Of a stretch of DNA of 64,000 nt, positions 3,901 to 25,390 are shown one piece after another. The notes under the pieces were generated by a model. The model searched no databases and was not told where the DNA came from. It saw only the letters and a list, made by a program, of their open reading frames with translations. Position 1 is the stretch's first letter, and the number at the start of each line of letters is the position of its first letter. Where the stretch lies: positions 452,383 to 516,382 of the forward strand of contig NZ_BBXF01000006.1 in the NCBI RefSeq assembly GCF_001570585.1, given 5' to 3'. This DNA is from Herbidospora daliensis. Its GTDB lineage: Bacteria; Actinomycetota; Actinomycetes; Streptosporangiales; Streptosporangiaceae. A program made the translations under genes and the position numbers.

Positions 3901-6900
3901 GTGTCCACTCACAAGCGGGCAAGCCGTTTCGCGCTGCGCAACTGGCGTGTGCCCACAAGGCTCACTGCGCTGATCCTCGCGCCGACGCTCATCGCGGTCA
4001 TCCTGGCCAGCATGCGGGTCGTCGGTTCCGTAGACAGCCTGTCCGCCTATGAGCGGACCGCGACCGCGGCGGAGTACGCCGGTCGCCTCCGGGAACTCGC
4101 GCAGCAGCTGGCGGCCGAACGCGACCACAAGGCCTGGCTCGACGGCCTGGTCGGCGTACAGAGCGCGCTGCGCAACGCCGACGAGACGATCCGCCAGCAT
4201 CGGGACACGCTCGCGGAACAGAAGCTGGTCGTCGACGGCCTGATCAAGAAGTCGGCGGCCGATCTGGCCGCCGTGGACACCTCGTTCGGGCCGCGTGTCG
4301 TCGAGGACGCCCGCCAGGTGCTCAACCGCCTGGAGACGGTGACCGACAGCCACGCCGCCGAACGCGACGACGACCCGGCGACCTCGATCTTCTTCGAGTA
4401 CGGCGCCACCATCGCCACCGTCCTGCGCCTGCACGACGACCTCGGCGAACTCAGCGACGACCCCGGTGTGGTGAGCTCCTCGAACGCGCTGAGCGCGCTC
4501 GCCCACGTCAAGGACGAGGCCTCGCAGCAGCGCGCCATCATGGTCGGCGAGCTCCTGGAGCCCCGGCAGGCGTTCACGCCCGACGACCTCCAGCGTTTCC
4601 TGGGCTCGTGGTCGCGGCAGGAGACGTACGAGAGCGCCTTTAACGCCGAAGCGACCACGGCGCAGTTCCAGGCTTTCCACGCGGCCCGCATCAGCAAGGC
4701 GAGCACCGACGTCGAGATGGCCAAGGCGTGGGCGGTCGCGCTCGGTTCGCGCAACCAGCCGCTCAAGCCGATCCCCGGCCGGGTGCTGACCGCGCAGGAC
4801 TGGTTCCGCGACAACGGGACCGTGCTCAACGCGATCGACGAGGTCGAGGCGCAGGTGGCGACCGCGTTGCGGACCCGCGCCGACAACCTGCGCTCCACCG
4901 AGCGGCGCAGCGCCATCGTGGCCGCCGCGCTGATCCTCGCGCTGATCCTGCTGGTCCTGGTGACGACCGTGCTGATCGCCCGCTCGATGGTGCGCCCGCT
5001 GCGGCGGCTGCGCGCCGAGGCGCTCGACATCGCCGGCACCCGGCTGCCGGAGATCGTGCGCCGCATGCGCGAGTCGGAGACGGGCGACACCTCCCCGGCG
5101 GTGCAGCCCATCGCGGTCGACAACCACGACGAGATCGGCGAGGTCGCGCAGGCGTTCGACGAGGTCCACCTCCAGGCGGTCAAGCTGGCGGGCGAGGAGT
5201 CCCGGCTGCGCAACAACGTCAACGCGATGTTCGTCAACCTGTCGCGGCGCACCCAGACCCTGGTCGAACGCCAGATCTCCCTCATCGACGGACTGGAGCG
5301 CGGTGAGCAGGACGGCGCCCGCCTGTCGGACCTGTTCAAGCTCGACCACCTCGCCACCCGCATGCGCCGCAACTCCGAGAACCTGCTGGTCCTCGCCGGG
5401 CACGAGACCGCGCGCAAGCGCAGCTCCCCGGCCCGGCTGGTGGACGTCGTGCGCGCCTCCCTGTCGGAGGTCGAGGACTACGAGCGGGTGACCGTGCGGG
5501 TGCACCGCTCGCCGGCCGTCGCCGGGCACGCCGCCAACGACGTCGTGCACCTGGTGGCCGAGCTGGTCGAGAACGCCATCTCGTTCTCGCCGCCCAGCAC
5601 GAAGGTCATCGTGTCGAGCAGCCCGATCGAGGGCGGCGCGGTGCTGCTGGCCATCACCGACAACGGCATGGGCCTGAGCCCCGACGAACTGCTGGAGATC
5701 AACACCCGGCTGGCCGAACCGCCGGTCGTGGACGTCTCGGTCTCCCGCCGCATGGGCCTGTTCGTGGTCGGCCGCCTGGCCGGTCGCCACGGCATCCGCG
5801 TCCAGCTCCGCAGGGGCGACAGCACCGGCATCATCGCGATGGTCCTGTTCCCGGCCGAGCTCATCACCAACGCCGACGCCCCCGCCCAGCCCCCGCAGCA
5901 GCCCCAGGTGACCCGGCCCCGCCCGGAACTCCCCACGGGCCCGCTGCCCGCCCTCCCGACGGGCCCCTTCACCCAGCACACGGGCCCGATCACCACGGGC
6001 CCGGTGTCTTTCGGCACCGGCCCCCACGCGACCGGCCCCCACGCGACCGGACCGGTCGGAGCAGGGCCGGGCGGAGCGGGGTCGGGCGGGCTGCCGCAGC
6101 GCAAGCCCCCGTCGCCCCGCCCTCCGGCGGACGACTCCTTCGCGCCTCCCGGCGGCCGGGTGCCCCGCCAGAGCCAGCCCCCGGGCGGCACGTTCCCCGG
6201 CTTCGAACGCCGCCACCCGAACAACCCGACGAACCAGACGGGACCAATCAACCCGGCCAACTCGACCGGCCCGATCAACTCCAGCGGTTCGACCGGCCCA
6301 ATCGGTTCAACCGGCCCGATCAATGCGACGGGTCCGACCGGTTCGACCGGCCCGATCAATGCGACGGGCCCGATCGGCTCTACCGGCCCGATCGGTTCGA
6401 CGGGTCCGAGCGGCTCTACCGGTTCGACCGGCCCGATCGGGTCTGCAGGCTCGACCGGTTCTGCGGGCTCGACCGGCCCGATCAGCCGGATCGGCCAGGC
6501 GGGCGCGGCGGGTCCCGGTAGCTTCGCGGGCGCTGGCGGCACGGCGAACCCCCCTGGTGGCGCAGCGAATCCCGCAGGGTCTGACGTCTTCAGGAGTCCT
6601 GGCGGGTCCGGAGGTCCGTCGGGTCCTGGTGGTCCTGGTGGTCCTGGCGGTCTCGGTGGTGCTGCGGGTTCGGGCGGCTTCGGCGGTCCGGCCGGTCCGG
6701 CGGGTCCCGGGGGTCCCGCGGGGCGGGCTGGGCAGCAGGCTGGGCCGACCGGGCGGTTGCGGCCGTCCAGTGGGGACACGCAGCCGACGCCGCTCGCGCC
6801 GCCGTTCACCGAGCACTCCGGGGCGTTCCCCGTGCTCGGGGCGCCCGCGCCGGTCGTCGGGCGGCCGGTGGCGGACACGCCGCTGGAGCGGGGGGACGAG

Positions 6901-7293
6901 TTCCTGCCGATCTTCGCGTCGGTCGAGTCGTCGGCCTGGTTCACCCGGCCGGAACCGTCCGCCGCTCCTGGGGCTCCAGATGCCCCTGTGACGCCTGAGG
7001 CGACTCCGTGGGGCCGGCATGCCGATCAGGGCTTCCAGGCGGCCCGAGCGGCCAACGAACCGGCTTCGGGGGGCGTCACACAGTCGGGGCTCCCGAAGCG
7101 GACGCCTCGTGCCAATCTGGTGCCGGGTTCCGTCGGGACGCAGCCCCAGGGCGCGCCGCCGCCGGAGTCGCCCCGGCCCCAGGTCTCGCCGGAGGCCGTA
7201 CGCGACCGGCTGTCCAGCTTCCAGCAGGGCGTACGACGAGGGCGGGCCGAAAGGACGCAGGAAGGCACGGGTAATGAGGAGGAGGGCTCGTGA
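3901..7293 (+). CDS. Conservon sensor kinase-like protein CvnA (copy 1)
   Basis: Membrane sensor at the head of conservon 1. From the chosen GTG: short cytoplasmic start containing [12 protein letters not shown]1 (about 22-40), extracytoplasmic NIT-type domain, TM2 (about 338-361), HAMP, a DHp-like helix [18 protein letters not shown] with candidate His483, and an HATPase domain with N-box ELVENA (Asn558), DNGMGL (587-592) and [11 protein letters not shown] Pro/Gly/Thr-rich tail of about 475 residues follows, ending in three short motifs shared with the other copies: [25 protein letters not shown] and [17 protein letters not shown]. The frame is open from 3766, but the first 45 codons do not look coding and GGCGGGG precedes 3901. 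No response regulator is adjacent, as usual for conservons. Confidence 0.88.
6226..6495 (+). repeat. In-frame TGPI/STGP coding repeats in the cvnA1 tail
   Basis: Degenerate repeats of about 15-30 bases encode strings such as [16 protein letters not shown], more than ten TGP units in a row. Codons for Thr-Gly-Pro alternate (acc/acg, ggc/ggt, ccg/cca), and third positions are less uniformly G/C than in the kinase core. It is a collagen-like, probably disordered tail segment. Unit number may vary between strains by slippage. This is coding sequence, not a CRISPR array: there are no unique spacers. Confidence 0.75.
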
Positions 7294-7709
7294 CTGAGCT
7301 CAGTGTCGACGCCAGCCGGTTCGACTGGCTGATCACCGACTTCGTGGGCGGCACCCCGGGGGTGGCCCACGCGGTGGTCGTATCGGCCGACGGACTGCGC
7401 CTGGCCAACTCCCAGGGGTTCCCGGCCGACCGGGCCGACCAGCTGGCCGCCGTGGCGGCCGGACTGGCCTCGCTGACCACCGGCGCCTCCCGGGTGTTCG
7501 AGGGCGGACCGGTCCGGCAGACCGTCGTGGAGATGCAGCGCGGACTGCTCATGGTGATGTCGATCAGTGACGGATCGGCCCTCGCCGTACTGGCGTCACA
7601 CGATTGTGATCTGGGCCTTGTCGCGTACCAGATGACCCTCCTGGTGGAGCGCGCCGGACAGGCGCTGACCCCGGCTCTGCGTGCCGAGCTGCACTCGGCG
7701 CGGCGGTGA
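7290..7709 (+). CDS. Roadblock/LC7 protein CvnB (copy 1)
   Basis: Small cytoplasmic Roadblock/LC7-fold protein, 139 residues, the second member of the conservon. Visible family features: [47 protein letters not shown] and [20 protein letters not shown]. In the MglAB paradigm Roadblock proteins regulate their partner GTPase; here the partner would be CvnD. It starts at a GTG whose bases overlap the cvnA1 stop (GTGA), so it is translationally coupled. It is more diverged from copies 2 and 3 than those are from each other. Confidence 0.92.
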
Positions 7710-7715
7710 TGCCCG

Positions 7716-8078
7716 ATGCGCGCGGGTGAGGGGACCGAGGACGAACCCCTTTTCCGTCCTTACGCCGTCACCGGAGGACGCGCCGAGCCGCGTTACCATC
7801 TGGCGATGGAGACGCTGGTCTCCACGGCGACCATGATGGGCGATGACTACTCCCTGCTCGGCCCCGAGCAGGAGGCGATCATGACGCTCTGCCGATCCGT
7901 GCGATCGGTCGCGGAGATCTCCGCGCTGCTCCGGGTCCCCCTCGGGGTGGCACGGGTGCTGATCGCCGACATGGCCGACGAAGGGCTGGTGCGACTGCAC
8001 ATGCCTCAGCTCATCAGCTCGGGCCAGCCCGACCTTAACTTGCTCGAAAGGGTGCTCAGTGGACTTCGCAGGCTCTAG
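7716..8078 (+). CDS. DUF742 protein CvnC (copy 1)
   Basis: DUF742 protein of 120 residues, third conservon member. It opens with the hallmark FRPYAVTGGRAEPR, then a winged-helix-like stretch CRSVRSVAEISALLRVPLGVARVLIADMADEGLV, and ends LERVLSGLRRL. Biochemical function is unknown; genetic work on Streptomyces conservons treats CvnA-D as one membrane-associated assembly. Its last 20 bases are also read, in another frame, as the start of cvnD1. A 6-base gap separates it from cvnB1. Confidence 0.9.
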   Translation: MRAGEGTEDEPLFRPYAVTGGRAEPRYHLAMETLVSTATMMGDDYSLLGPEQEAIMTLCRSVRSVAEISALLRVPLGVARVLIADMADEGLVRLHMPQLISSGQPDLNLLERVLSGLRRL

Positions 8079-8643
8079 TCGCGGCCTGACCTCGACGAAG
8101 ATCGTCGTGGCGGGTGGTTTCGGCGTGGGCAAGACGACGTTCGTCGGCGCCGTCTCGGAGATCCTTCCGCTGACGACCGAGGCCGTCATGACCGACGCCA
8201 GCGCGGGGATCGACGACCTCGGGCTCACGCCGGAGAAGACGACGACCACCGTCGCCATGGACTTCGGTCGTCTCTCGCTCGATCAGGACCTCATCCTTTA
8301 CCTGTTCGGAACCCCCGGGCAGCACAGGTTCTGGTTCATGTGGGACGATCTGGTCCGCGGCGCGATCGGTGCTGTCGTACTGGTCGACAGCCGCAGGCTT
8401 GCCGACAGCTTCCCGGCGATCGACTACTTCGAGGAGGCGCAGCTTCCGTTCGTCGTGGCGCTGAACGGGTGGGACGGCGTGTTCATGCACGCCGAAGAGC
8501 AGATTCGCGAGGCTCTGTCGCTGCAGCCGCACGTGCCCATCGTGCGGACGGACGCGCGGTCCCGCGAAGCCGTCAAGTCCACCCTGATCACCCTTGTTGA
8601 GTACGTACTGACCGTGCGTTCCGCATACGGTCGGCAATACTGA
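8059..8643 (+). CDS. Conservon GTPase CvnD (copy 1)
   Basis: Small Ras/MglA-like GTPase, 194 residues. The P-loop GGFGVGKTTFVGAVSE sits near residue 20; the switch region contains TTTVAMDFG; the G3-like segment is YLFGTPGQHRFWFMW, where the usual DxxG Asp is Gly; the G4 position reads ALNGWDG rather than NKxD, as in this family generally. The GTG start lies inside the 3' end of cvnC1 (20-base overlap), so translation probably depends on cvnC1. A strong terminator follows, closing the conservon 1 transcript. Confidence 0.92.
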   Translation: MDFAGSSRGLTSTKIVVAGGFGVGKTTFVGAVSEILPLTTEAVMTDASAGIDDLGLTPEKTTTTVAMDFGRLSLDQDLILYLFGTPGQHRFWFMWDDLVRGAIGAVVLVDSRRLADSFPAIDYFEEAQLPFVVALNGWDGVFMHAEEQIREALSLQPHVPIVRTDARSREAVKSTLITLVEYVLTVRSAYGRQY

Positions 8644-8792: not shown

Positions 8793-8919
8793 CGAAGTGT
8801 GAACGTCCAGCTAACAATGTCCTGAAAAGTCTTGATCTGTGTTGATACGTGCTGCAACACTCCCCCTTTGGTCTGCCCCCCTGCAGGCCATCAGGCAAAT
8901 TTCAGAAGGAGTAGCGGTC

Positions 8920-10053
8920 GTGTCCCGAATCCGGCACACCCGTCATCTGCCGGCTGTTGTCACCGCCGCCGGCCTTGTCCTCGCCCTGGCCGCGTGTGGC
9001 GGCTCGAACTCCGCCACCACGGCGGACGGCGCCGCCGCGCCGAGCGCCACCGCCGCGCAGCTCGACCCGAACGCCGACCTCACCAAGCAGAGCCTGACCT
9101 TCACCATCTGGGACGGCTACAGCCCCGAGGACCTGAAGGACCGCGTCAAGGAGAAGCTCGGCTTCACCATCGAGAAGGCGATCCACGACACCAACGAGAC
9201 GGCCATGGCCAAGATCACGGCCTCCAAGGGTGTCGGTTTCGACGTGGCGTTCGTGTCGGGCCAGTACGCCCAGGCCCTCAACGAGGCAGGCCTGCTGGAG
9301 CCCCTGCACAAGGAGCTCATCCCGAACCTCGCGAACCTCTACCCCGAGGCCTCGAACCTGTCCTACGACAAGGGCAACAACTTCTCGGTTCCCTACACCT
9401 GGGGCACGACCGGCATCTGCTACCGGACCGACCTGGTGAAGCCCGCTCCCACGAGCTGGAACGATCTTCTCCAGCCGAAGCCGGAGTACGAGAAGAAGAT
9501 CACCCTCATGACGACCGAGCGCTGGCTCGCGCTGCCCGCCCTCAAGGCCATGAACGCGTCGATCAACACCACCGACGACGCGGTGATCGCCAAGGCCAAG
9601 GAGATGCTGGAGGCCGCCAAGCCCAAGCTGCTGGCCTTCGACGACACCGAGTTCGGCGCCAAGGTCGCCAAGGGTGAGGCCGTCATGGCCGAGGCCTGGG
9701 ACGGCTGGTGCCCCACCGGTGAGCCCAACGTCGGCTTCGTCGTCCCCAAGGAGGGCAGCGACCTCTGGGTGGACACGATGGTGATCCTGAAGGCGTCCAA
9801 GAACAAGGAAGCGGCGCACGCCTTCATCAACTTCATCCTCGACCCCGAGCAGCACGGCTGGGCGGCCCAGAACATCCTCTACAAGGTCCCGAACAAGGCG
9901 GCCATGGAGAAGGTCCCGGCCGACGTCCTCGCTTCGAACGAGCCGCTGAAGTACACGCCGGCCGATCTGCTGCAGGGCGAGTCGATCATCGACCTGGGCT
10001 CCGACTCGGCGAAGTACACGACCCTGTCGACCGAGGTCACCGCCGCGCAGTGA
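8920..10053 (+). CDS. Extracellular solute-binding lipoprotein, PotD/PotF-like (orphan)
   Basis: Exported lipoprotein of 377 residues resembling spermidine/putrescine-type binding proteins (SBP_bac_8 style). Start GTG 8920 is chosen because AAGGAG lies 9 bases upstream and a signal peptide follows directly, with lipobox LAACGG. Family landmarks are LTFTIWDGY, VPYTWGTTGICYRTDLV and MAEAWDGWCPTG. No permease or ATPase gene is adjacent: a conservon lies upstream and a glycosyltransferase downstream. It either uses a transporter encoded elsewhere (PotABC at 55.5-59.5 kb is one candidate) or works as a sensor accessory. Polyamine specificity is a guess from family resemblance. Confidence 0.85.
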   Translation: MSRIRHTRHLPAVVTAAGLVLALAACGGSNSATTADGAAAPSATAAQLDPNADLTKQSLTFTIWDGYSPEDLKDRVKEKLGFTIEKAIHDTNETAMAKITASKGVGFDVAFVSGQYAQALNEAGLLEPLHKELIPNLANLYPEASNLSYDKGNNFSVPYTWGTTGICYRTDLVKPAPTSWNDLLQPKPEYEKKITLMTTERWLALPALKAMNASINTTDDAVIAKAKEMLEAAKPKLLAFDDTEFGAKVAKGEAVMAEAWDGWCPTGEPNVGFVVPKEGSDLWVDTMVILKASKNKEAAHAFINFILDPEQHGWAAQNILYKVPNKAAMEKVPADVLASNEPLKYTPADLLQGESIIDLGSDSAKYTTLSTEVTAAQ

Positions 10054-10148: not shown

Positions 10149-11432
10149 ATGTCTGCTGAGAAGCCGCTGACCGTCCTGTTCATGCCGGAGAGCGCGTACG
10201 GGCCCACCAACAACTGCATCGGCATCGGCGACGTCCTCCTCAAGCGCGGCCACCGTGTGGTGTTCGCGGCCGAGGCGTCGTGGAAGGGCAAGCTGACCGC
10301 CCTCGGTTTCGAGGAGGACCTGGTCGACCTCGCCCCGCCGGCGGAGGACGCCGAGGAGCAGGACGCGGGCCAGTTCTGGAAGGACTTCATCCGCGACACC
10401 GCGCCCGAGTACCGCAAGTCGACGCAGGAGCAGCTCGAGACGGTCACCAAGCCGATCTGGGACGCCCTCATCGACGGCGCGAAGTACTGCGAGCCGCAGC
10501 TCAAGGCCATCATCGAGCGGGTGAAGCCCGACGTCATCGTCGAGGACAACGTCATCACCTTCCCCGCGCTGCTCACCGCGGGCGTGCCGTTCGTGCGCAT
10601 CATGTCGTGCAACCCGCTGGAGATGCGCGGCGAGGGCGTGGCCCCGGTCTTCTCGGGTCTCCCGGCCACCGGTGAGGGGTGGAAGGAGTTCAACGAGGAG
10701 TACGACCGCACCCACCGCGAGATCTGGACGGCGTACAACGAGTGGGTCGTGGAACAGGGCGCCCCGCCGCTCCCGGACCTCGACTTCATCCACGAGGGTG
10801 ACGCGAATCTCTACGTTTACCCCGAATTCCTCGACTACACTGTCGAGCGCCCGCTCGGGCCTTCGTGGACCCGGTTGGATTCGTCGGTACGCGAGACGGA
10901 CGAGGACTTCACGTTGCCGTTCGAGCGCGGTGACAACGCGCTGATCTACTTCTCGCTCGGTTCACTCGGTTCGGCCGACGTCGAGCTGATGCGCCGGGTG
11001 ATCGACGTGCTGTCGCGTACACCGCATCAGTACATCGTCTCCAAGGGCCCCCTCCACGAGGAGATCGAGTTGGCCTCCAACATGTGGGGCGCCGAGTTCG
11101 TTCCGCAGACGAAGATCATCCCGCTGGTGGACCTCGTCATCACCCATGGCGGCAACAACACCACCACCGAGGCGCTGCACTTCGGCAAGCCGATGATCGT
11201 GCTGCCCCTGTTCTGGGACCAGTACGACAACGCCCAGCGCGTCGACGAGAAGGGCTTCGGCGTCCGCCTGGACACCTACAAATTCTCCGACGAAGACCTC
11301 ATCGGCGCCGTCGACCGCCTGATCGGCGACTCCGCCCTGCGCGCCGACCTGGCGGCGAAGGGCGAGGAGCTCCGCCGCCGAGACGGCCTCCGCGTGGCCG
11401 CGGACGTCATTGAGAAGGTCGCGGCCAAGTAA
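10149..11432 (+). CDS. GT1-family glycosyltransferase (macrolide/UGT type)
   Basis: GT-B fold glycosyltransferase of 427 residues. The N-terminal half opens VLFMPESAYGPTNNCIGIGDVLLKRGHRVVF, as in acceptor-binding domains. The C-terminal half carries the donor-binding motif: DLVITHGGNNTTTEALHFGKPMIVLPLFWDQYDNAQR. The HGG-N-x-x-x-E stretch and the trailing DQ are the residues that normally hold the nucleotide sugar. Purine-rich GAGAAGAG precedes the ATG. Relatives glycosylate macrolides, flavonoids or lipids; no other biosynthetic gene is next to it, so the acceptor is unknown. It sits between conservons 1 and 2. Confidence 0.87.
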   Translation: MSAEKPLTVLFMPESAYGPTNNCIGIGDVLLKRGHRVVFAAEASWKGKLTALGFEEDLVDLAPPAEDAEEQDAGQFWKDFIRDTAPEYRKSTQEQLETVTKPIWDALIDGAKYCEPQLKAIIERVKPDVIVEDNVITFPALLTAGVPFVRIMSCNPLEMRGEGVAPVFSGLPATGEGWKEFNEEYDRTHREIWTAYNEWVVEQGAPPLPDLDFIHEGDANLYVYPEFLDYTVERPLGPSWTRLDSSVRETDEDFTLPFERGDNALIYFSLGSLGSADVELMRRVIDVLSRTPHQYIVSKGPLHEEIELASNMWGAEFVPQTKIIPLVDLVITHGGNNTTTEALHFGKPMIVLPLFWDQYDNAQRVDEKGFGVRLDTYKFSDEDLIGAVDRLIGDSALRADLAAKGEELRRRDGLRVAADVIEKVAAK

Positions 11433-15666: not shown

Positions 15667-16234
15667 CCGGGGCCTGACCTCGACGAAGATCGTCGTGGCG
15701 GGTGGCTTCGGCGTCGGCAAGACGACATTCGTCGGTGCGGTGTCGGAGATCGTGCCGCTCACGACGGAGGCGGTGATGACCGACGCCTCCGAAGGCATCG
15801 ACGATGTCGGCCTGACCCCCCACAAGACCACGACGACCGTGGCGATGGACTTCGGCCGGGTGTCGCTCGACCAGGATCTGATCCTCTACCTGTTCGGCAC
15901 CCCCGGTCAGCACCGCTTCTGGTTCATGTGGGACGACCTGGTGCGGGGCGCCATCGGCGCGATCGTGCTGGTCGACACGCGCCGCCTGGCCGACAGCTTC
16001 CCGGCCGTCGACTACTTCGAGGAGGCGCAGCTCCCGTTCGTGATCGGCATCAACGGTTTCGACGGCAGCTACCCCCACGGGGAGAACGAGGTGCGCGAGG
16101 CGCTGTCGCTGTCGCCGCACACCCCGATCGTGCGCACCGACGCGCGGTCGCGTGACTCGGTGAAGAACACGCTGATCACTTTGGTGGAGCACGCTCTGAC
16201 GATGCGGGTCGCGGTCCCCGGCTGGCAGCGCTAG
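15647..16234 (+). CDS. Conservon GTPase CvnD (copy 2)
   Basis: Small GTPase of 195 residues with P-loop GGFGVGKTTFVGAVSE, TTTVAMDFGRVSLDQDL, YLFGTPGQHRFWFMWDDL and a G4-like INGFDG. The first residues (VDFAGSSRGLTSTKIVV) are identical to CvnD1. It starts inside cvnC2 with the same 20-base overlap found in the other two conservons. The protein is very close to CvnD3. It ends 20 bases from the convergent methyltransferase gene, with a small hairpin between the two stops. Confidence 0.93.
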   Translation: MDFAGSSRGLTSTKIVVAGGFGVGKTTFVGAVSEIVPLTTEAVMTDASEGIDDVGLTPHKTTTTVAMDFGRVSLDQDLILYLFGTPGQHRFWFMWDDLVRGAIGAIVLVDTRRLADSFPAVDYFEEAQLPFVIGINGFDGSYPHGENEVREALSLSPHTPIVRTDARSRDSVKNTLITLVEHALTMRVAVPGWQR

Positions 16235-17262: not shown

Positions 17263-18047
17263 CTGGTCTCCACTCCAAATCCGTGCGTGTTGCGGTGGGG
17301 GGTCATGCCGCGGACGAGACGGCCGACTTCGGCGCGCAGCCGGACGAAGGCGTCGAGTTCGCGGGTGTGGATCTGGTCGCGCGGCCCGGGGAGCTGGACG
17401 GGCAGGTCGCCCACCACCGTTCCGGGGGCCTTGCTGAGCACCACGACGCGGTCGCCTACGTAGACGCTCTCGTCGACGTCGTGGGTGATCAGCAGGATGG
17501 TCATGCCGTGGTGGGCGCAGACGCGGAGGGTCAGGTCCTCCAGCTCCTCGCGGGTCTGCGCGTCGACGGAGCCGAAGGGCTCGTCCATGAGCAGCAGTTT
17601 CGGCTGGTACGCCAGCGCGCGGGCGATGGACACCCGCTGCTGCATGCCGCCGGACATCTCCCACGGGAACTTCGCGGCGGCCCCGGCCAGGCCGACCTGT
17701 TCGAGGGCGGCCATGGCGGCGGCGTCGCGCCGCTTCTTGTCCAGGCCGCGGCGGCGCAGCGGCAGGCCGACGTTGGCCACCGCCGACATCCACGGGTAGA
17801 GCGAACGGCTGTAGTCCTGGAAGACCACGGCCAGGTTCTCGGGGCTGCCGTCGACGGGTTTGCCGTCGAGCAGGACGGTTCCGCCGGTGGGTTTGATCAG
17901 CCCCGCGATCGACCGCAGCAGGGTCGACTTCCCGCAGCCCGATGGCCCGACGATGCAGACCACCTCGCCCTGGGCGACCTTGAGGTTGACGCGGTCGATG
18001 GCGCGGTAGGAGCCGTAGGTGTGGCTCAGGTCGACTAACTCAAGCAC
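17259..18047 (-). CDS. NitT/TauT-type ABC transporter ATP-binding protein
   Basis: Cytoplasmic ATPase of 262 residues of the nitrate/sulfonate/taurine importer class. Walker A is GPSGCGKST, the Q-loop region is VVFQDYSRSLYPWM, the signature is MSGGMQQR, Walker B is LLLMDEPFGSVD and the H-loop is THDVDES. Start is GTG at 18047, 10 bases after the upstream permease stop. The stop overlaps the methyltransferase start. The full set (binding protein, two permeases, ATPase) is present, so the importer looks functional. Confidence 0.93.
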   Translation of the reverse strand: MLELVDLSHTYGSYRAIDRVNLKVAQGEVVCIVGPSGCGKSTLLRSIAGLIKPTGGTVLLDGKPVDGSPENLAVVFQDYSRSLYPWMSAVANVGLPLRRRGLDKKRRDAAAMAALEQVGLAGAAAKFPWEMSGGMQQRVSIARALAYQPKLLLMDEPFGSVDAQTREELEDLTLRVCAHHGMTILLITHDVDESVYVGDRVVVLSKAPGTVVGDLPVQLPGPRDQIHTRELDAFVRLRAEVGRLVRGMTPHRNTHGFGVETR

Positions 18048-18056: not shown

Positions 18057-18848
18057 CTAAACGTTGCGCCTGGCGTTGGCGTGCCAGGACAGGACGCGGC
18101 CCTCGGCGACGAGGAACAGGGCGTTGAACAGCAGGCCGAGCACGCCGAGCAGGACGATGTGCGCCCAGACCCCCGCGTAGTCGTAGGTCTGCTGCGCGTA
18201 GAGCAGGCTGTAGCCGATGCCGCTGTTGCTGCCGACGAGTTCCGACACCACCATCAGGATCAGCGCCAGCGACAGGCTCAGCCGGAGGCCCGCGAAGATC
18301 TTCGGCATGGCCGAGGGCAGGATGACGCGGCGGAGGATGTCGTACCGGCTGAACTGGAAGACCCGTGCGGTCTCCAGGAAGCCCTTGTCCACCGCCCTTA
18401 CTCCGTCGGTCGTGTTGACCAGCACCGGCCAGATGACCCCGAAGACGATGACGGCGAGCTGCGTGGGGGTGCCGATCTTGAACAGCACGAAGAAGATGGG
18501 CACCAGCAGCGGGGGCGGCAGGGCGCGCAGGAACTGCAGCACCGGGTCGGTGTACTCGGACAGGCCGCGGATCCGGCCGAGGGCCACACCGAGGGCGATG
18601 CCGAGCACGCCGGCGATGAGCCATCCCGCGATCAGCCGCCCGAGGCTGGGCCCGAAGGTGTCGAGCGCGCTGTCAGTCAGCAGCAGCTGGGAGGCCGGGC
18701 CGCTCAGCCACATGTCGTAGAACTGGGTGGCGATCCTGCTGGGCGGCGGGAAGTACGGCGACTCCGTCGCCCGCGTGAGCAGTTCCCACACCACCAGCGT
18801 CACGGGCACGATCCAGAAACGGAGCACGCCGGAGGTCGCTCGTCTCAC
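18057..18848 (-). CDS. NitT/TauT-type ABC transporter permease (second)
   Basis: Inner-membrane permease of 263 residues of the binding-protein-dependent family. Hydrophobic segments are clear, starting LRFWIVPVTLVVWELL, and the cytoplasmic EAA-like loop reads VDKGFLETARVFQFSRYDIL before VILPSAMPKIF. The GTG start is embedded in the stop of the preceding permease gene (GTGA). It resembles the first permease in layout, as expected of a heterodimeric membrane pair. Confidence 0.92.
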   Translation of the reverse strand: MRRATSGVLRFWIVPVTLVVWELLTRATESPYFPPPSRIATQFYDMWLSGPASQLLLTDSALDTFGPSLGRLIAGWLIAGVLGIALGVALGRIRGLSEYTDPVLQFLRALPPPLLVPIFFVLFKIGTPTQLAVIVFGVIWPVLVNTTDGVRAVDKGFLETARVFQFSRYDILRRVILPSAMPKIFAGLRLSLSLALILMVVSELVGSNSGIGYSLLYAQQTYDYAGVWAHIVLLGVLGLLFNALFLVAEGRVLSWHANARRNV

Positions 18849-19627
18849 GTGGCGGCCCCCGCTCTGGCGCGGTGCCACCGGAACAGCCGGTTCTCCCCGG
18901 CCACGAGCACGGCGTTGACCAGGATGCCGAACAGGCCGACCAGGATCGTCGCGCCGATCATCAGGTCGAGCCGGTTGCCGCTCGCCGCGATGGTGATGTA
19001 GACGCCGATGCCCTCGATGCCGCCCGCGATCAGCTCGGACGTCACGACCAGCACGATCGCGACCGAGGCGGCCAGCCGGATGCCGGTGGCGATGAAGGGC
19101 GCGGCGCCCGGCAGCACCACCCGGTAGGCGACCGATCCGGGACCGAAGCCGAAGCTGCGCAGGGTCTCCTTGGCCAGCGGGTCGACGTCGCGCACGCCGT
19201 AGATGGTGTTGATGAGCACGGGCCACAGGGCGGCGTACACCGCGACCGTGATCCGCATGTGGGTGGTCTCCGAGTAGAGCAGGATGACCAGGGGGATCAG
19301 CGCGACCGACGGGATCGGCCGCAGGAACTCGATCAGCGGCCGCACCGCCAGTTCGGCGGGTTTGACCATGCCGAGCAGCAGCCCGGCCGGCACGGCGATC
19401 GCGATCGTCACCAGCAGCGCCAGCGCCCACGTGGTCAGGCTCGACCGGGCGCTGACGAGGAACTCTGGGTCGGTGAGCAGCTCACCGGCCCGCAGCAGGA
19501 CCGTGGAGACGAGGGGCAGCCTTTCGGTGTCCCACGCGCCCAGCCGGCCGGCCGCCTCCAGAACGACGAGCAGCCCCGCGGTCCCGATGAGACCGCGGAG
19601 CAGGCTCGCCCCGTTTACCTTCGGCAC
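18845..19627 (-). CDS. NitT/TauT-type ABC transporter permease (first)
   Basis: Inner-membrane permease of 260 residues. It contains an EAA-like loop VDPLAKETLRSFGFGPGSVAYRVVLPGAAPF and six likely membrane segments, including LALLVTIAIAVPAGLLLG and SVAIVLVVTSELIAGG. GTG start 4 bases after the binding-protein stop; its own stop overlaps the second permease. With the neighbours it forms a five-gene unit oriented opposite to the conservons. Confidence 0.92.
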   Translation of the reverse strand: MPKVNGASLLRGLIGTAGLLVVLEAAGRLGAWDTERLPLVSTVLLRAGELLTDPEFLVSARSSLTTWALALLVTIAIAVPAGLLLGMVKPAELAVRPLIEFLRPIPSVALIPLVILLYSETTHMRITVAVYAALWPVLINTIYGVRDVDPLAKETLRSFGFGPGSVAYRVVLPGAAPFIATGIRLAASVAIVLVVTSELIAGGIEGIGVYITIAASGNRLDLMIGATILVGLFGILVNAVLVAGENRLFRWHRARAGAAT

Positions 19628-19631: not shown

Positions 19632-20630
19632 TCACTGCGCGGGGGCAGCCGGCGCCATCAGGGCCTTCACGTCGAAGCCGGCCGGGATCATGCCGTACTC
19701 CGTCAGCGTGTCGGCGACCCGCTGCAGGCGCGCCTCGCTCAGCGAGGTGGAGTAGGTGCCCAGCGCGATGACGGCCGCGGTGGCGGCGTCGATCTTCGTG
19801 TACTTCGGCAGCGCCTCCTCGACGACCTTGCGGTCGGAGGCGGCCAGGGTCTGCGCCTTGGCCAGGGCGCGCTGGAAGGCGGCGACGGTCTTCGGGTTCT
19901 CGCTGGTGAACTTGTCGGTCATCACCCAGCCGGCGATGGGGAAGTTCTCCAGCGGGCCCGCCATGCTGTCGGCGACCTTCTTGGCGCCGGCCTTGGCGTT
20001 CGCCGAGATGAACGGCTCGGCGACCCAGATCGCGTCGACGGTGCCGGTCTCCAGCGCCGCGCCCATCTCGGGCAGCGGCATGGCGACGTACTGCTCCTTC
20101 TCGTTGATCGTGACGCCGGCGACCTTGGCGGTCGCGGTCACCGCGAGGGTGCCGATCGCGTTGAGGGTGTTCACCGCGATCTTCTTGCCCGCGAGGTCGG
20201 CCGCGGTGTTGATGGCGGCGTTGTCACCCTTGGTCATGATGACGAAGTTGTCGGGGGCGGCCTGGTAGCTGTCGGCCACCACCTTGAACTTGCCGGCGCC
20301 GGCCTGCTGCGCGAGGAACAGCGCGACGTAGTTGCCGAGCATGGCGTCGAGCTGGCCCGCGACGAGCTTGGGCGTGGCCGCGGCGCCGCCGACCTCGACG
20401 GAGATCTTGACGTCGAGGCCCTCTTCCTTGAAGAAGCCCCGGTCCAGAGCGATCTGGATGGGGGCGGCGTCGGGCACGGCCACGACGCCGATGGTCAGCG
20501 CGCTCTTCTCGAGCCCGCCGGAGCCGGTGGCGGCCGCGCCGGTCTCGGGCTCGCCGGTGCCACAGGCCGAAAGGGTCAACGCAGCCAGAACGCCCACGAT
20601 GAGCGTCCGGCCCGCAAATAGGCGCCTCAT
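19632..20630 (-). CDS. NitT/TauT-type substrate-binding lipoprotein
   Basis: Exported binding lipoprotein of 332 residues (SsuA/NMT1-like). Signal peptide MRRLFAGRTLIVGVLAALTL runs into lipobox LSACG with Cys23. The mature part starts ALTIGVVAVPDAAPIQIALDRGFFKEEGLDVKI, the usual opening of sulfonate/nitrate/pyrimidine-precursor binding proteins. ATG 20630 is chosen over a start 11 codons upstream because AAGGAG stands 9 bases ahead of it. First gene of the transporter-methyltransferase operon. The ligand cannot be read from sequence; nitrate, sulfonates and aromatic or pyrimidine precursors are all possible. Confidence 0.92.
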   Translation of the reverse strand: MRRLFAGRTLIVGVLAALTLSACGTGEPETGAAATGSGGLEKSALTIGVVAVPDAAPIQIALDRGFFKEEGLDVKISVEVGGAAATPKLVAGQLDAMLGNYVALFLAQQAGAGKFKVVADSYQAAPDNFVIMTKGDNAAINTAADLAGKKIAVNTLNAIGTLAVTATAKVAGVTINEKEQYVAMPLPEMGAALETGTVDAIWVAEPFISANAKAGAKKVADSMAGPLENFPIAGWVMTDKFTSENPKTVAAFQRALAKAQTLAASDRKVVEEALPKYTKIDAATAAVIALGTYSTSLSEARLQRVADTLTEYGMIPAGFDVKALMAPAAPAQ

Positions 20631-21032
20631 TGGTTGAGTCTCCTTAGATGGGGGGAAGCACACCCGCCCATGGCCAAGATCGCGGGGCCCGGCGGGCGAC
20701 GGCGAAGACTGTATCGGTTCGAAATCACCATCAACAGGAATAAGAGCACTATGTCACCAAACTTGTAAATAAATAAGGTCCTGTGACTTTTGGGTGGTTT
20801 ACGGAAGTAGTGGGCGTTTGGACCGGTCCGTCCATCGGCTGGACCTGATCGATGGATTCGGTCGGTCGCTGACCTGGTCTGGGATAACTATGTGATGAAT
20901 CGTCATCTCTGGACCGGTCCAAAACCAATGTGACTATTGGTAGAGCTCCTAGTCATATGCTCCAATTGCCCCTGGCTTATGGGAGGTATCCCGAAGAAAA
21001 TTGAAATTTCTTTTATCGGAAGGGTGCGGCCT
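20631..21032. promoter_or_regulatory. Divergent promoter region with two GGACCGGTCC palindromes
   Basis: This 402-bp gap separates the divergent transporter operon and conservon 3. It is AT-richer than its flanks (for example around 20740-20780). The perfect 10-bp palindrome GGACCGGTCC occurs twice, at 20820-20829 and 20911-20920, with a GGACC half-site near 20840. GGATAACTATGTG at 20882-20894 lies between the copies and resembles motifs upstream of the other conservons. No small gene was seen. The twin palindromes are the best candidate operator for joint control of both operons. Confidence 0.55.
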
Positions 21033-23984
21033 GTGAGGACGGCAACGATCGAACGTGATCACCGCACCGCGCCCGAGGCGCTGCCGGAACCCCCAAGGGA
21101 GCCGGCCGGCCATCGGGACACGACATCCAAGCGGATGGCGTTGCACAACTGGCGGGTCCGTAACCGCCTTATCGCACTGATCATGATTCCGACCGTCGCG
21201 GCGGTCGTTCTCGGCGCCATGCGCGTCATCAGCGCGGTTACCAGTGCCGCGGAATATCAGCGGGTGAGCGATATCGCCGCGTTCACGGGAACGCTCGGCG
21301 AGCTCATCCAGGAGATCGAACTCGAACGAGATTTGACAATTCCCTGGATCGCCGACAGGCGACGTCAAGAGTCTGATCTCAACCTAATCGACGCACAACA
21401 GAGCAAAGTGGACGTGCTCGCCGAAAAGGTGCGTGAGCGCGTTCCAGAGATCGAAGGATCTCTCGGTGACCTCGGTAAAGAGAAGCTGACGCGCGTCGAC
21501 GGACGGCTCTCCGAGCTCAAGAACCTGCGCGAGATCACCATCAAGACCCAGCTCCCCGCGCTTCCCGCGGTGGACAAGTACTCCCTCGTCATCGGCGACC
21601 TCCTGCGCTTCTACGAAGAGGTCGGACAGGCCGGCACCGACGAGTCGATCGACGGCACCGCCGCCGCGCTGACCGCGCTGGCCCGCGCCAAGAACGAGCA
21701 GTCGATCATGCGTGGCCTGCTCTCCCTCGGCATCAAGATGCGCAACTTCACGCCCATCGAGCTCGACGCCGTGACCGCCGCCCGCAAGCGGTTCGAGAGC
21801 GAGATCGCCGCGTTCCGCGTCGCGGCCACCCCCACGGAGCGGCAGCTGTACGCCGACACCGTGACCGGCTCCCGCGTCGACCAGGCCGAGTTCCTGCGCG
21901 GCTCGGCGATGGAGCGCATCCGCCTCGACCGCCAGCTCGTCAACCTCGACGGCACCCCCGGCGAGGACTCCGAGATCTGGTTCGAGTCGAGCAGCTTCGG
22001 CATCGAGCGCATGAACGAGGTCGAGAAGCAGCTGGTCGGCTCGGTCGTCAAGCAGGCCGACACGCTGGCCGCCGCCGACCAGCGCGGCGCGCTCGTCAAC
22101 ATCCTGGTCGTCGTGGTCATCCTGGCGCTGGTGCTGCTCATCACCACCGGAATGGCGCGCTCGCTGACCACGCCGCTGCGGCGGTTGCGGTCGGAGGCCC
22201 TGGAGATCGCCGGGCACCGGCTGCCCGACCTGGTCCAGCGCCTGCGCGAGTCCGACTCCGCGGCCGACGCGGTCCCGCACGTCGCCCCCATCGGCGTCAG
22301 CGGCTCCGACGAGATCGGTGAAGTGGCGCGGGCCTTCGACGAGGTCCACCGCGAGGCGGTCCGGCTGGCGGGTGACGAGTCGCGGCTGCGCAGCAACATC
22401 AGCGCGATGTTCGTCAACCTCTCCCGCCGCACCCAGACGCTGGTGGAACGCCAGATCGCCCTGATCGACGGTCTGGAGCAGGGCGAGCAGGACGAGTCCC
22501 GGCTCGCCAACCTGTTCAAGCTCGACCACCTCGCGACGCGCATGCGCCGCAACTCGGAGAACCTCCTGGTCCTCGCCGGCCAGGAACCCGCCCGCCGGTG
22601 GAGCCAGCCGGTGGAGGTCACCGACGTCGTGCGCGCCTCGCTCTCGGAGGTCGAGGGCTACGAGCGCGTCGTCATCAACGTGCCGGGTGAGGTCGCGCTG
22701 GCCGGTCAGGCCGTCAACGACGTCATCCACCTGCTCGCCGAGCTGGTCGAGAACGCCCTGTCGTTCTCCGCCCGCGACACCCGCGTCATCGTCTCCGGCA
22801 ACCGCATAGACGGTGGGGGAGTGATGGTGTCGGTGACCGACTCCGGCATCGGCATGAGCCCCGATGAGATCGGCGCCACGAACTGGCGGCTGGCCAACCC
22901 GCCGGTCGTGGACGTGTCGGTGTCCCGTCGAATGGGCCTGTTCGTGGTCGGCCGGCTCGCGCTGCGCAACGGCATCCGCGTGCAGATCCGCAACCACGAC
23001 GGCGGCGGCCTCACCGCGATGGTGCTGCTGCCCGAGTCGCTGATCGCGGTGCCGCCGAGCGCGGTCCAGCAGGGCCCGCACTTCGGCACCGGCGGGTACG
23101 CCCCCGCCTGGACCCCCAAGGGTCAGCTGCCCCAGATGCCGCCGCAGCAGGACAACACCACCGGCGGCTGGGGCCCGCCGCAGCTCGGCTCGCCCGGTGG
23201 ACGGCCCGCGCTGCCGTCGCCCGGACCGCTGGGGCCGTCGACGGGGCCGTACAACACCCAGCCCGCGCCGCCCTCCCAGCACACGGGACCTCAGCACACG
23301 GGCCCGCAGTACACCGGTTCCCAGCACACGGGGCCCCAGCAGCACATGGGTCCTCAGCACACGGGACCGCAGCCGTCGATGTTCGGCCCGCCGCCCCGGC
23401 AGCAGGGTCCGTCGTCGACCGGACCGAACGGCGCTCCGGGAGGTCAGCCCACGATGTTCGGACCGCCGCCCCCGATGCCGCAGCAGCCCGGAAACCCGCT
23501 GCCCCGGCGCAAGTTCGACTCGGCTCTCGGCGGTCTGTCGGGCCTGAGCGAACGGGACGCCGACGTCACCGGCCCGCTGCCCGCGGTCCGGGAACCCGCC
23601 GGACAGGACCGGCCCGAGGAGTTCCTGCCGATCTTCGCCTCCGTCGAGTCGGCGTGGTTCAAGAAGCCCGCCGAGGAGAGCAAGGCCGAGGAGACCTGGA
23701 AGGAAACCAAGGCCGACTCCGCGTGGGGGGTCGCCGCCGCGGCCCAGCAGCCCCAGTTCGAGGCCAGCACCTCCGCCGGCCTGCCCAAGCGTGTACCCAA
23801 GGCCAACCTCGTCCCGGGCTCCGCCGAGCCGGGCCGGCAGGCGGCCGCGTCACCACCGCCGTCGCTCTCCCCCGACCGCGCCAGAAGCCGGCTCTCCAGC
23901 CTCCAGTTCGGCGTACGCCAGGGCCGCGCCGTGGCCCGGGGCGAGATCAGCGAGGACGAGGGTTACCCAGGAAGAGGGGAATGA
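21033..23984 (+). CDS. Conservon sensor kinase-like protein CvnA (copy 3)
   Basis: Membrane sensor of 983 residues from the chosen GTG, which has GGAAGG 8 bases upstream; the frame is open from 20937 but that part has poor coding character. Order: LHNWRVRNRLIALIMIPTVAAVVLG (TM1), NIT-type domain, TM2 (LVNILVVVVILALVLLITTG), [22 protein letters not shown] (candidate His499), HATPase with ELVENA, DSGIGM and [10 protein letters not shown]. The tail contains QHTGPQ repeats and closes with [27 protein letters not shown] and RSRLSSLQFGVRQGRAV. The conserved C-terminal motifs after a variable linker are shared by all three copies. Confidence 0.88.
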   Translation: MRTATIERDHRTAPEALPEPPREPAGHRDTTSKRMALHNWRVRNRLIALIMIPTVAAVVLGAMRVISAVTSAAEYQRVSDIAAFTGTLGELIQEIELERDLTIPWIADRRRQESDLNLIDAQQSKVDVLAEKVRERVPEIEGSLGDLGKEKLTRVDGRLSELKNLREITIKTQLPALPAVDKYSLVIGDLLRFYEEVGQAGTDESIDGTAAALTALARAKNEQSIMRGLLSLGIKMRNFTPIELDAVTAARKRFESEIAAFRVAATPTERQLYADTVTGSRVDQAEFLRGSAMERIRLDRQLVNLDGTPGEDSEIWFESSSFGIERMNEVEKQLVGSVVKQADTLAAADQRGALVNILVVVVILALVLLITTGMARSLTTPLRRLRSEALEIAGHRLPDLVQRLRESDSAADAVPHVAPIGVSGSDEIGEVARAFDEVHREAVRLAGDESRLRSNISAMFVNLSRRTQTLVERQIALIDGLEQGEQDESRLANLFKLDHLATRMRRNSENLLVLAGQEPARRWSQPVEVTDVVRASLSEVEGYERVVINVPGEVALAGQAVNDVIHLLAELVENALSFSARDTRVIVSGNRIDGGGVMVSVTDSGIGMSPDEIGATNWRLANPPVVDVSVSRRMGLFVVGRLALRNGIRVQIRNHDGGGLTAMVLLPESLIAVPPSAVQQGPHFGTGGYAPAWTPKGQLPQMPPQQDNTTGGWGPPQLGSPGGRPALPSPGPLGPSTGPYNTQPAPPSQHTGPQHTGPQYTGSQHTGPQQHMGPQHTGPQPSMFGPPPRQQGPSSTGPNGAPGGQPTMFGPPPPMPQQPGNPLPRRKFDSALGGLSGLSERDADVTGPLPAVREPAGQDRPEEFLPIFASVESAWFKKPAEESKAEETWKETKADSAWGVAAAAQQPQFEASTSAGLPKRVPKANLVPGSAEPGRQAAASPPPSLSPDRARSRLSSLQFGVRQGRAVARGEISEDEGYPGRGE

Positions 23985-24415
23985 CCAGCGTGAGAGAGAT
24001 GAGCCAGGCCGCCCGCGGCATCAACTGGCTGATCAACGACTTCGTGATGTCGGTGCCGGGCGTCGCCCACACCGTCGTCGTCTCGTCCGACGGCCTTCCG
24101 CTGGCCTACTCGGACGGATTCCCGAAGGACCGCGCCGACCAGCTAGCGGCGGTCGCGGCCGGGTTGATCTCGCTGACCCAGGGCGCATCCCGGGTGTTCG
24201 AGGGCGGCCCGGTCACGCAGACCGTCGTGGAGATGCAGCGCGGGCTGTTGCTGATCATGTCGATCAGCGACGGCTCGTGCCTGTCGGTCCTGGCGGCGGC
24301 CGACGCGGACATGGGCCTGGTTGCCTACCAGATGACGCTGTTCGTCGAGCGTGCCGGTCAGGTACTCACGCCCGCGGTCAGGGCGGAGCTTCAGGCTTCC
24401 AACCCGAGGAGATGA
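23981..24415 (+). CDS. Roadblock/LC7 protein CvnB (copy 3)
   Basis: Roadblock/LC7-fold protein of 144 residues, starting MTSVREMSQAARGINWL; ATG overlaps the cvnA3 stop (ATGA) and GAAGAGGGG precedes it. It contains [20 protein letters not shown] and [20 protein letters not shown] and is nearly the same as CvnB2. A frame open to 23654 would extend it but reads through the cvnA3 tail in a wrong frame. Probable partner of CvnD3. Confidence 0.92.
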   Translation: MTSVREMSQAARGINWLINDFVMSVPGVAHTVVVSSDGLPLAYSDGFPKDRADQLAAVAAGLISLTQGASRVFEGGPVTQTVVEMQRGLLLIMSISDGSCLSVLAAADADMGLVAYQMTLFVERAGQVLTPAVRAELQASNPRR

Positions 24416-24417
24416 CC

Positions 24418-24810
24418 ATGGACTCGTGGGGGTCTCCGCCCTACGGTGGCGGCCAGCCGCCACCGCGCCCGGAGCCGGCCTCGCCGGTCCGCCCCTTCAC
24501 CGTCACCGGCGGCCGCACGACACCACGCATGCAGCTCGCGCTGGAGGCGCTGGTGTCGTCGGCCACGTCGCTGCAGCACGACCTGTCCCAGCGGCCGCCG
24601 GAATACCGGGCGATCAGCTCCCTGTGCCGTCAGGTGCGGTCGGTGGCGGAGGTGTCGGCGCTGCTGCACATCCCGCTCGGGGTGATCCGTGTGGTGATCG
24701 CGGACATGGTCGCCGAGGGTCTGGTGCACGTGCACCAGCCGCAGTTGGACGCCGGTATGCCGGACTTGGGCTTGTTGGAAAGGGTGCTCAGTGGACTTCG
24801 ACGTCTATAG
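24418..24810 (+). CDS. DUF742 protein CvnC (copy 3)
   Basis: DUF742 protein of 130 residues. The ATG at 24418 is preferred over 24412 because CGAGGA then sits about 7 bases upstream; 24412 would overlap the cvnB3 stop. A Pro/Gly-rich start (SPPYGGGQPPPRPEP) precedes VRPFTVTGGRTTPR, then CRQVRSVAEVSALLHIPLGVIRVVIADMVAEGLV and LERVLSGLRRL. The last 20 bases are shared with cvnD3. Confidence 0.9.
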   Translation: MDSWGSPPYGGGQPPPRPEPASPVRPFTVTGGRTTPRMQLALEALVSSATSLQHDLSQRPPEYRAISSLCRQVRSVAEVSALLHIPLGVIRVVIADMVAEGLVHVHQPQLDAGMPDLGLLERVLSGLRRL

Positions 24811-25390
24811 TCACGGCGGCGGCGCGAGCCGCGGCCTGACCTCGACGAAGATTGTTGTGGCGGGTGGCTTCGGGGTGGGCAAGACCACCTTCGTCGGAGC
24901 GGTCTCCGAGATCGTCCCGCTGACGACCGAGGCGGTGATGACCGACGCCTCGAAGGACATCGACGACGTCGGGCTGACCCCCCACAAGACCACCACGACG
25001 GTGGCCATGGACTTCGGCCGGGTGTCGCTGGAGGAGGATCTGATCCTCTACCTGTTCGGCACCCCCGGTCAGCACCGTTTCTGGTTCATGTGGGACGACT
25101 TGGTCAGAGGCGCCATCGGCGCGATCGTCTTGGTGGACACGCGGCGGCTGGCCGACAGCTTCCCCGCGGTCGACTATTTCGAGGAGGCCCAGCTTCCGTT
25201 CATCGTGGGCATCAACGGCTTCGACGGCCGCTACCCCCATGCCGAGGACGAAATCAGGGAGGCCCTGACCCTCTCCGCCCACGTCCCGCTCGTCCGTACG
25301 GACGCCCGCTCCCGCGATTCGGTGAAGAACGCCCTCATCACGCTGGTGGAGCACGCGCTCACCTCGCGTGTGGGCGGTCCTCGCTGGTGA
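24791..25390 (+). CDS. Conservon GTPase CvnD (copy 3)
   Basis: Small GTPase of 199 residues, starting VDFDVYSHGGGASRG, slightly longer at the N-terminus than the other copies. P-loop GGFGVGKTTFVGAVSE, switch TTTVAMDFG, G3-like YLFGTPGQHRFWFMW and G4-like INGFDG match CvnD2. It begins inside cvnC3. Only 70 bases separate its stop from ffh, and no terminator hairpin was seen there, so conservon 3 transcripts may read into ffh. Confidence 0.93.
   Translation: MDFDVYSHGGGASRGLTSTKIVVAGGFGVGKTTFVGAVSEIVPLTTEAVMTDASKDIDDVGLTPHKTTTTVAMDFGRVSLEEDLILYLFGTPGQHRFWFMWDDLVRGAIGAIVLVDTRRLADSFPAVDYFEEAQLPFIVGINGFDGRYPHAEDEIREALTLSAHVPLVRTDARSRDSVKNALITLVEHALTSRVGGPRW

Follow-up and report, generated by a model that had tools for sequence, protein, structure and literature searches.

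Whether conservons, the cvnABCD gene sets, cross-talk within one cell is a question raised for Cvn8 (PMC8510531; this and the other papers cited below are drawn on from excerpts). A 64,000-nucleotide stretch of Herbidospora daliensis DNA, here called the window, raises it at a single locus: three complete sets lie in the same direction at positions 3901–25390, flanked by glnD and ffh, with seven unrelated genes interspersed among them. The evidence tips, if only slightly, towards reading them as the form that an ancient array, belonging to the Streptosporangium–Nonomuraea–Herbidospora group, takes in Herbidospora; its sets would act as several inputs to one largely exchangeable switch. This reading draws on the anatomy and synteny of the locus, on a conflict between trees of its parts, on gene conversion tracts in related genera, and on retained sets of CvnA and CvnC (A–C sets) that lack CvnB and CvnD. 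The biochemical steps in it are carried over from published work on Mfp, Cvn8 and Cvn9, and we infer the subunit sharing and the ligands.

The array repeats three times, on one strand, the Pfam order NIT, HAMP and HATPase_c (CvnA), Robl_LC7 (CvnB), DUF742 (CvnC) and PF03029 (CvnD). The three-set call is not due to chance, because the NIT, Robl and DUF742 matches score 81–137 bits; the NIT domain (PF08376) reaches 81, 137 and 123 bits in the three CvnA proteins, and CvnB and CvnC score above Pfam cut-offs. All three CvnA proteins carry an LPKR tail, matching the LPxR criterion. Read by eye, CvnD2 and CvnD3 have NGFD and DAR, in agreement with the group-2 MglA motifs NxFD and DAR (PMC4316618), and CvnD1 has NGWD and DAR, one residue off NxFD. 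Gene geometry is identical in the three sets, with overlaps of 4 bases between A and B and 20 bases between C and D. The sets occupy 3901–8643, 11563–16234 and 21033–25390, all on the plus strand, from the GTG start of A1 at 3901 to the end of D3 at 25390. Domain matches, coordinates and gene geometry thus confirm the three sets, in one direction within the glnD–ffh neighbourhood, that a first-pass annotation of the window had described. The gene order is amtB, glnK (assigned from open reading frame position only), glnD, the three sets, ffh and rimM-trmD-rplS-lepB. The sets and their boundaries are as follows, with positions P1, P3 and P4 as given by the sensor tree described below.

1421..3724, plus strand: glnD, left boundary of the array (Pfam GlnD_UR_UTase, HD, ACT)
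3901..7293, plus strand: cvnA of set 1 (P1), with NIT, HAMP, HATPase_c, Gly-rich collagen-like linker and LPKR tail (Pfam)
7290..7709, plus strand: cvnB of set 1 (Robl_LC7)
7716..8078, plus strand: cvnC of set 1 (DUF742)
8059..8643, plus strand: cvnD of set 1, MglA-type GTPase (Pfam)
11563..14856, plus strand: cvnA of set 2 (P3; Pfam, position from sensor tree and synteny)
14853..15275, plus strand: cvnB of set 2
15295..15666, plus strand: cvnC of set 2
15647..16234, plus strand: cvnD of set 2
21033..23984, plus strand: cvnA of set 3 (P4, adjoins ffh; start placed by its likeness to set 3 of Microbispora)
23981..24415, plus strand: cvnB of set 3 (found via genome search, position set by translation)
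24418..24810, plus strand: cvnC of set 3
24791..25390, plus strand: cvnD of set 3
25461..27002, plus strand: ffh, right boundary of the array

Within the CvnA1 linker, at about 6283–6432, there are collagen-like Gly-X-Y repeats (Pfam Collagen, 22 bits, below cut-off).

Likeness between the sets is unevenly spread. B, C and D of sets 2 and 3 had been called nearly the same, which holds for B (91% identity) and D (89%) and less so for C (78%); set 1 is indeed more distant from both (B 74–78%, C 65–66%, D 82–85%). The CvnA proteins of sets 2 and 3 are 46% identical overall, a figure that falls to 30% over the sensor and rises to 78% over the kinase core. A sliding comparison places the divergence in the sensor and the Gly/Pro-rich linker, and the likeness in the HAMP-kinase region, the CvnA tail, B, C and D, so that the change-over falls inside CvnA, between sensor and HAMP-kinase. 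The genome holds eight CvnC (DUF742) genes, five of them outside the array, and its three scattered complete sets are 41–48% (B) and 55–61% (D) identical to the array sets. At silent sites, sets 2 and 3 of the window have a synonymous divergence (dS) of 1.07 in B, 0.83 in C and 0.72 in D, similar to or higher than that of Herbidospora–Acrocarpospora orthologues (0.50–0.80).

The sensors sort by array position. In a tree of NIT sensors (47 rows), P1, P2 and P3 each form one group (support 100/100, 100/100 and 100/99), and in a larger sensor tree (114 rows) CvnA likewise groups by position. Synteny matches these labels, with P3 sensors following a PotD-like/glycosyltransferase cassette and P4 sensors preceding ffh. 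Sets 1, 2 and 3 of Herbidospora are P1, P3 and P4, P2 having been lost, and sets 2 and 3 have positional orthologues in Acrocarpospora, Nonomuraea, Streptosporangium, Planomonospora and other genera. Three groupings by lineage are rejected by the sensor data in approximately unbiased (AU) tests (7e-6, 6e-43 and 1e-51), on a dataset that included one scattered A–C set of the H. daliensis genome, which the 47-row tree omits.

The kinase core, CvnB, CvnC and CvnD, by contrast, sort partly by lineage. In a tree of concatenated B, C and D (BCD; 44 rows), P2–P4 of Herbidospora, Acrocarpospora, Microbispora, Planotetraspora and genome G061 form one clade (99/95) and those of Nonomuraea another (97/89); Streptosporangium-like genera retain a distinct P3 and P4, and the sets of genus g24 are unresolved at the base. 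P2, P3 or P4 appeared as one group in none of 200 bootstrap trees. In the kinase-core tree, P3 of Herbidospora and Acrocarpospora joins P2 of Microbispora, Planotetraspora and G061 (SH-aLRT 96). Six close relatives of included genomes were omitted from the trees, and G090, whose middle sets are incomplete, from the position-labelled tests. In a further BCD tree the 83 array sets form one clade (SH-aLRT 99), apart from the f20 pair, family f19 and genera g3/g5; the possibility that the sets are unrelated imports is thereby rejected.

The direct evidence comes from Microbispora and Nonomuraea, where neighbouring B and D genes of one genome are under gene conversion. Sets 2 and 3 of the single-contig Microbispora genomes G016 and G070 differ by a dS of 0.17–0.18 in B and 0.09–0.14 in D, compared with 0.36–0.39 for the same genes between the two species; for D alone, the paralogues stand at 0.09 (G016) and 0.14 (G070) against 0.39 between species. 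Paralogous B genes of Nonomuraea G110 have a dS of 0.09, against 0.39–0.49 for sister-species orthologues. In both B and D, paralogues are closer at silent sites than sister orthologues in G016, G070, G110 and Nonomuraea G092. Exact shared tracts of 596, 595, 411, 346 and 290 bases occur in relatives, the Microbispora tracts of 596 and 595 bases spanning the end of C and most of D. Identity between sets 4 and 5 of G110 rises from 34% for the sensor and 85% for the kinase to 99% for B, 96% for C and 98% for D, with a 290-base exact tract in B. Exact tracts of at least 150 bases were found in 8 of 41 genomes (35 arrays and six f20 tandem pairs). Contig ends offer a circumstantial sign of the same kind. 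Around 80 ffh loci, 12 contigs end within 1.5 kb upstream and 5 in the next 8.5 kb, compared with 2 and 10 downstream (counted by eye), an excess which fits identical D repeats breaking assemblies. The 12 loci whose contig stops in or near the last cvnD, less than 1.2 kb upstream of ffh, are L112, L114, L119, L120, L123, L125, L134, L146, L150, L153, L174 and L176.

Some array sets lack CvnB and CvnD altogether. In two Streptosporangium, two g14 and two Planomonospora genomes, P2 is an A–C pair, with CvnA frames of 911–1075 residues and CvnC directly after; all six retain the H-box, the N-box and an LPRR tail. No CvnB was found in these sets by Pfam Robl_LC7, and tblastn of the six intervals found no B or D remnants (best E 0.49, with P1 controls at 1e-62 or better), so decayed B and D genes left inside them were rejected as an explanation. 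A 10-letter pattern drawn from the window sets is missing from the A–C sets. An 11-letter alternative to it occurs in five of the six and in G079, and G084 matches neither form; G079 has TLDH in place of KLDH, and two full Nonomuraea sets lack an exact ELVENA. In G079, an A–C pair is followed by a TetR-like gene (by eye) and then by a separate B–D pair without A or C. For the A–C sets, the median ratio of nonsynonymous to synonymous divergence (dN/dS) stands at 0.28 (A core) and 0.47 (C), compared with 0.20 and 0.17 in ten full P2 sets. The A–C sets are therefore still under purifying selection, with a looser constraint than full sets. They must borrow the B and D of other sets, work without them, or be slowly decaying. 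The H. daliensis genome has a scattered set of this kind, without B and D and head to head with a complete conservon (L203, C2:878500–890500), so A–C sets are not confined to the array. Together with gene conversion in relatives, the A–C sets give indirect support to an earlier suggestion that subunits could mix.

The array is old and is held at the glnD–ffh site across many related genera. Both genes were searched for in 121 genomes of the order, 64 of which have a glnD match at E 1e-60 or better. The two lie on one contig, 9.5–79 kb apart, in 34 of the 64 (in one case across the record start), on different contigs in 15, and in the remaining 15 are separated by at most 2.13 kb, too small a gap for a set. 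Two to five complete sets lie inside 33 of the 34 one-contig gaps over 2.2 kb, in 11 genus codes; the interval of G001, from another family, is 10.6 kb long and has no set. Conservation in many genera, which the first-pass annotation had regarded as a sign of a functional unit, is thus borne out by comparison of the locus. A strain-specific accident is excluded, since all seven Herbidospora genomes share the three-set array. Three complete sets are also present in Acrocarpospora (n=1) and Planomonospora (n=2), two or three in Microbispora (n=5) and Streptosporangium (n=7), two in Planotetraspora (n=2) and five in Nonomuraea (n=2). The array of G079 has two complete sets and a split middle set, in G061 two sets adjoin ffh while glnD finds no match at E 1e-60, and only CvnB of the fourth position of G050 is visible near the end of the record. 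In another twelve genomes from the window's family, glnD and ffh fall on separate contigs; of these, the analysis covered one side of a single genome, G118.

The ancestral array would have had at least four positions, P1–P4, each a complete cvnABCD equipped with a separate extracellular NIT sensor. Every CvnA presumably responds to a ligand of its own and then autophosphorylates; it would act on CvnB, a GTPase-activating protein (GAP), and CvnC, a guanine nucleotide exchange factor (GEF), thereby setting the GTP state of CvnD. Published work shows that CvnA8 autophosphorylates and that, in the Mfp system, MfpD (the counterpart of CvnB) acts as a GAP and MfpC (the counterpart of CvnC) probably as a GEF (PMC13343842, PMC13015309); CvnA9 contacts B and C, and these two in turn bind D (PMC8510531). 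Purifying selection, joined in several genera by conversion, would preserve the likeness of the kinase core, CvnA tail, B, C and D in P2–P4, while the sensors and linkers drift apart. Since the cores stay alike as the sensors diverge, the sets are most likely inputs to one largely exchangeable GTPase switch and not insulated lines. To judge from the sequences, sharing of subunits among P2–P4 is marginally the better supposition; for P1, the most separate position of the array, it is less certain. A stronger and more tentative form, to which we would give rather less than an even chance, is a single hub. Here two to five sensor kinases with different ligands would drive a single shared supply of GAP, GEF and Ras-like GTPase, whose members selection and gene conversion would keep interchangeable; the A–C sets would use their neighbours' subunits in trans.

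A number of results weigh against an exchangeable switch. In Herbidospora itself, the longest exact tract between sets 2 and 3 is 48–59 bases in all seven genomes, and the B–D divergence of the window (dS 0.72–1.07) indicates no recent conversion in its own genus; any homogenisation there would be old, and the likeness held by selection. Conversion can also be passive between similar repeats. P4 is consistent but weak in the sensor tree (70/44). P1 forms its own BCD clade (support 100), which argues for some insulation. The conflict of B–D with positional clades is borderline in AU tests, with values of 0.062 (P2), 0.052 (P3) and 0.038 (P4) once the mixed G079 row is dropped and P4 is tested together with its Nonomuraea duplicate, and of 0.118, 0.073 and 0.079 in a reduced set; the stronger values of 0.044, 0.022 and 2e-11 came from a test that included the G079 row and kept P4 apart from the duplicate. 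Finally, dN/dS in the A–C sets ranges over 0.28–0.32 in the A core against 0.20 in full sets, and over 0.41–0.47 in C against 0.17, so that the A–C sets may be decaying. A rival reading makes the sets insulated parallel pathways, each co-translated, assembled at its own membrane sensor and signalling alone. Conversion and the high identity of B and D would then be by-products of tandem repeats and strong purifying selection, and A–C sets a slow decay. The tightly overlapping gene geometry repeated in each window set, the single P1 clade, the long separate evolution of Herbidospora sets 2 and 3 and the looser constraint on A–C sets all favour such insulation. It sits poorly, however, with the intact frames and motifs of A–C sets in six genomes, and with the split A–C and B–D arrangement of G079. 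The residues that separate P1 from P2–P4 (each at 85% or more) are moreover few: 4 of 138 positions in CvnB, 3 of 115 in CvnC and only 1 of 189 in CvnD, counts that include the mixed G079 row. Insulation is a doubtful, though substantial, alternative to the exchangeable switch.

Another alternative is a nitrogen-signalling hub in which NIT sensors detect nitrate or nitrite and the array acts with AmtB–GlnK–GlnD and the adjoining ABC transporters. NIT domains are present in all three CvnA proteins, that of A2 matches the structure of a nitrate regulator (4AKK, NasR; E 0.0034), array sets conserve the ER motif aligned with 4AKK (E 100%, R 98%), and a taurine/nitrate-type transporter adjoins P4. 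We presume a role for the arginine of this motif in NasR. The nitrogen genes are, however, mere neighbours, with a terminator-like hairpin (a consensus match only) ahead of set 1; the array of G061 lies beside ffh in a genome without a glnD match at E 1e-60; the transporter matches fall below family cut-offs; and the sensors of sets 2 and 3 share only 30% identity. NIT domains that do not bind nitrate also exist (PMC13343842). The link of the array to nitrogen is one of location only, and such a hub is improbable. More remote still is the history proposed in the first-pass annotation, an old duplication giving set 1 and a recent one giving sets 2 and 3, local to the lineage. In favour of such a history stands the high identity of sets 2 and 3 in B (91%) and D (89%), but their sensors are separately orthologous to sets of other genera, as the sensor tree and the positional orthologues show, and a B–D dS of 0.72–1.07 excludes a recent duplication; we give it next to no weight.

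Conservons, NIT sensors and adjacent duplication are already known (PMC4316618, PMC8510531, PMC13343842), and GTPase, GAP, GEF and autokinase activities have been reported for Cvn8, Cvn9 and Mfp (PMC8510531, PMC13343842, PMC13015309). With the AGPS systems (cvn1–cvn13 of S. coelicolor and mycobacterial Mfp), the array shares the A-B-C-D order and domain content, a NIT-type CvnA as in cvn1–6 (PMC8510531) and the LPxR tail of CvnA (PMC4316618). It differs from them in that several sets share a single site across 11 genus codes, that its sensors sort by position and its cores partly by lineage, and that some sets are without B and D. Conservons had been described as scattered units in Streptomyces, which does not hold throughout. 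S. coelicolor CvnA1 is SCO5544 and CvnA2 SCO5540 (table in PMC9739842), a numbering that implies that cvn1 and cvn2 are adjacent; in family f20, taken to be Streptomyces, the two best CvnB matches lie about 5 kb apart in 7 of 7 genomes; and adjacent duplicated conservons are mentioned in PMC4316618. This tandem pair resembles the array in its adjacent sets and in a D dS of 0.14–0.49 in six f20 genomes; in G225, the only genome compared by region, the sensor is 29% and B and D are 96% identical. Exact D tracts of 164 and 146 bases occur in two of the six f20 tandem pairs (L187–L192). The pair nevertheless has two sets only and forms a separate clade in the BCD and kinase-core trees, so it is independent or independently homogenised.

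The adjacent duplicated conservons that lose mglA (cvnD), described by Wuichet and Sogaard-Andersen (PMC4316618), are alike in duplication and core loss. There, the gene lost is that of the GTPase and the excerpts make no mention of conversion, whereas in the present arrays intact A–C sets lack B as well as D. CvnD belongs to the MglA family and CvnB to the MglB/Roadblock family (PMC4316618), as in MglA–MglB of Myxococcus and Thermus. CvnB2 matches the solved structures of CvnB5 (3LEQ) and Rv3364c (9HEF), and a phmmer search of CvnD2 against solved structures returned nothing at E 0.001. The MglA–MglB pair differs in having no CvnA-type sensor kinase or CvnC, and it places protein complexes and does not regulate genes (PMC13343842). 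Within the open-access literature, to which the search was confined (subscription papers lay outside it), no paper combined 'conservon' with 'gene conversion' or 'concerted evolution'; nor did the excerpts of open-access conservon papers contain an account of a positionally conserved array with core conversion, or of A–C sets without B and D.

The other features between glnD and ffh lie in the gaps between sets.

3845..3868, plus strand: terminator-like hairpin in the gap from glnD to set 1 (consensus match only)
8839..10053, plus strand: PotD-like ABC substrate-binding protein, in the cassette 5' of P3 (below NCBIfam cut-off)
10149..11432, plus strand: MGT-type glycosyltransferase of the PotD-like cassette (below NCBIfam cut-off)
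16255..17253, minus strand: O-methyltransferase (start approximate)
17259..18047, minus strand: ABC transporter ATPase, taurine/nitrate type (below cut-offs)
18057..18899, minus strand: ABC permease (start approximate)
18845..19627, minus strand: ABC permease
19632..20663, minus strand: SsuA/NMT1-type substrate-binding protein

The five minus-strand genes between sets 2 and 3 are thus a methyltransferase and an SsuABC/NrtABC-like ABC transporter. The cassettes accompany their sets closely. All 23 genomes with P3 also carry the PotD-like and glycosyltransferase genes, and all 10 that lack an intact P3 have neither. The 33 genomes comprise G061 and 32 of the 33 arrays on one contig, the exception being G050, which was covered over its first 20 kb only; six of the 23 lie outside the trees and were labelled by likeness to a tree genome. 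P4 and the SsuA-type cassette occur together in 28 of 28 genomes and are both absent in 5 of 5. We do not conclude from this co-occurrence that cassette and set are linked in function, since a recombination event joining two similar D genes would take out both at once. The in-array PotD-like protein of the window has no adjoining ABC ATPase, whereas many other genera retain one there. Elsewhere in the window, at 55513–61112 on the plus strand, a TOBE-type ABC ATPase, a PotD-like binding protein, a permease and an FAD-dependent oxidoreductase stand in a row that looks like polyamine uptake and oxidation. A XerC-like tyrosine recombinase of 588 residues (36298–38064, plus strand) adjoins a dprA-like gene and has about 300 low-complexity residues separating its N-terminal SAM-like and catalytic domains. 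A tRNA scan of the window found none, and a promoter scan of 3600–4000 was uninformative.

In this array the input domain diverges and the output machinery stays alike, a general pattern for tandem signalling arrays. Arrays in which some sets have lost B and D, or in which parts of B and D have become identical between sets, are ready-made genetic tests of conservon cross-talk. If true, the single hub would parallel, in bacteria, the use of one G protein by many receptors.

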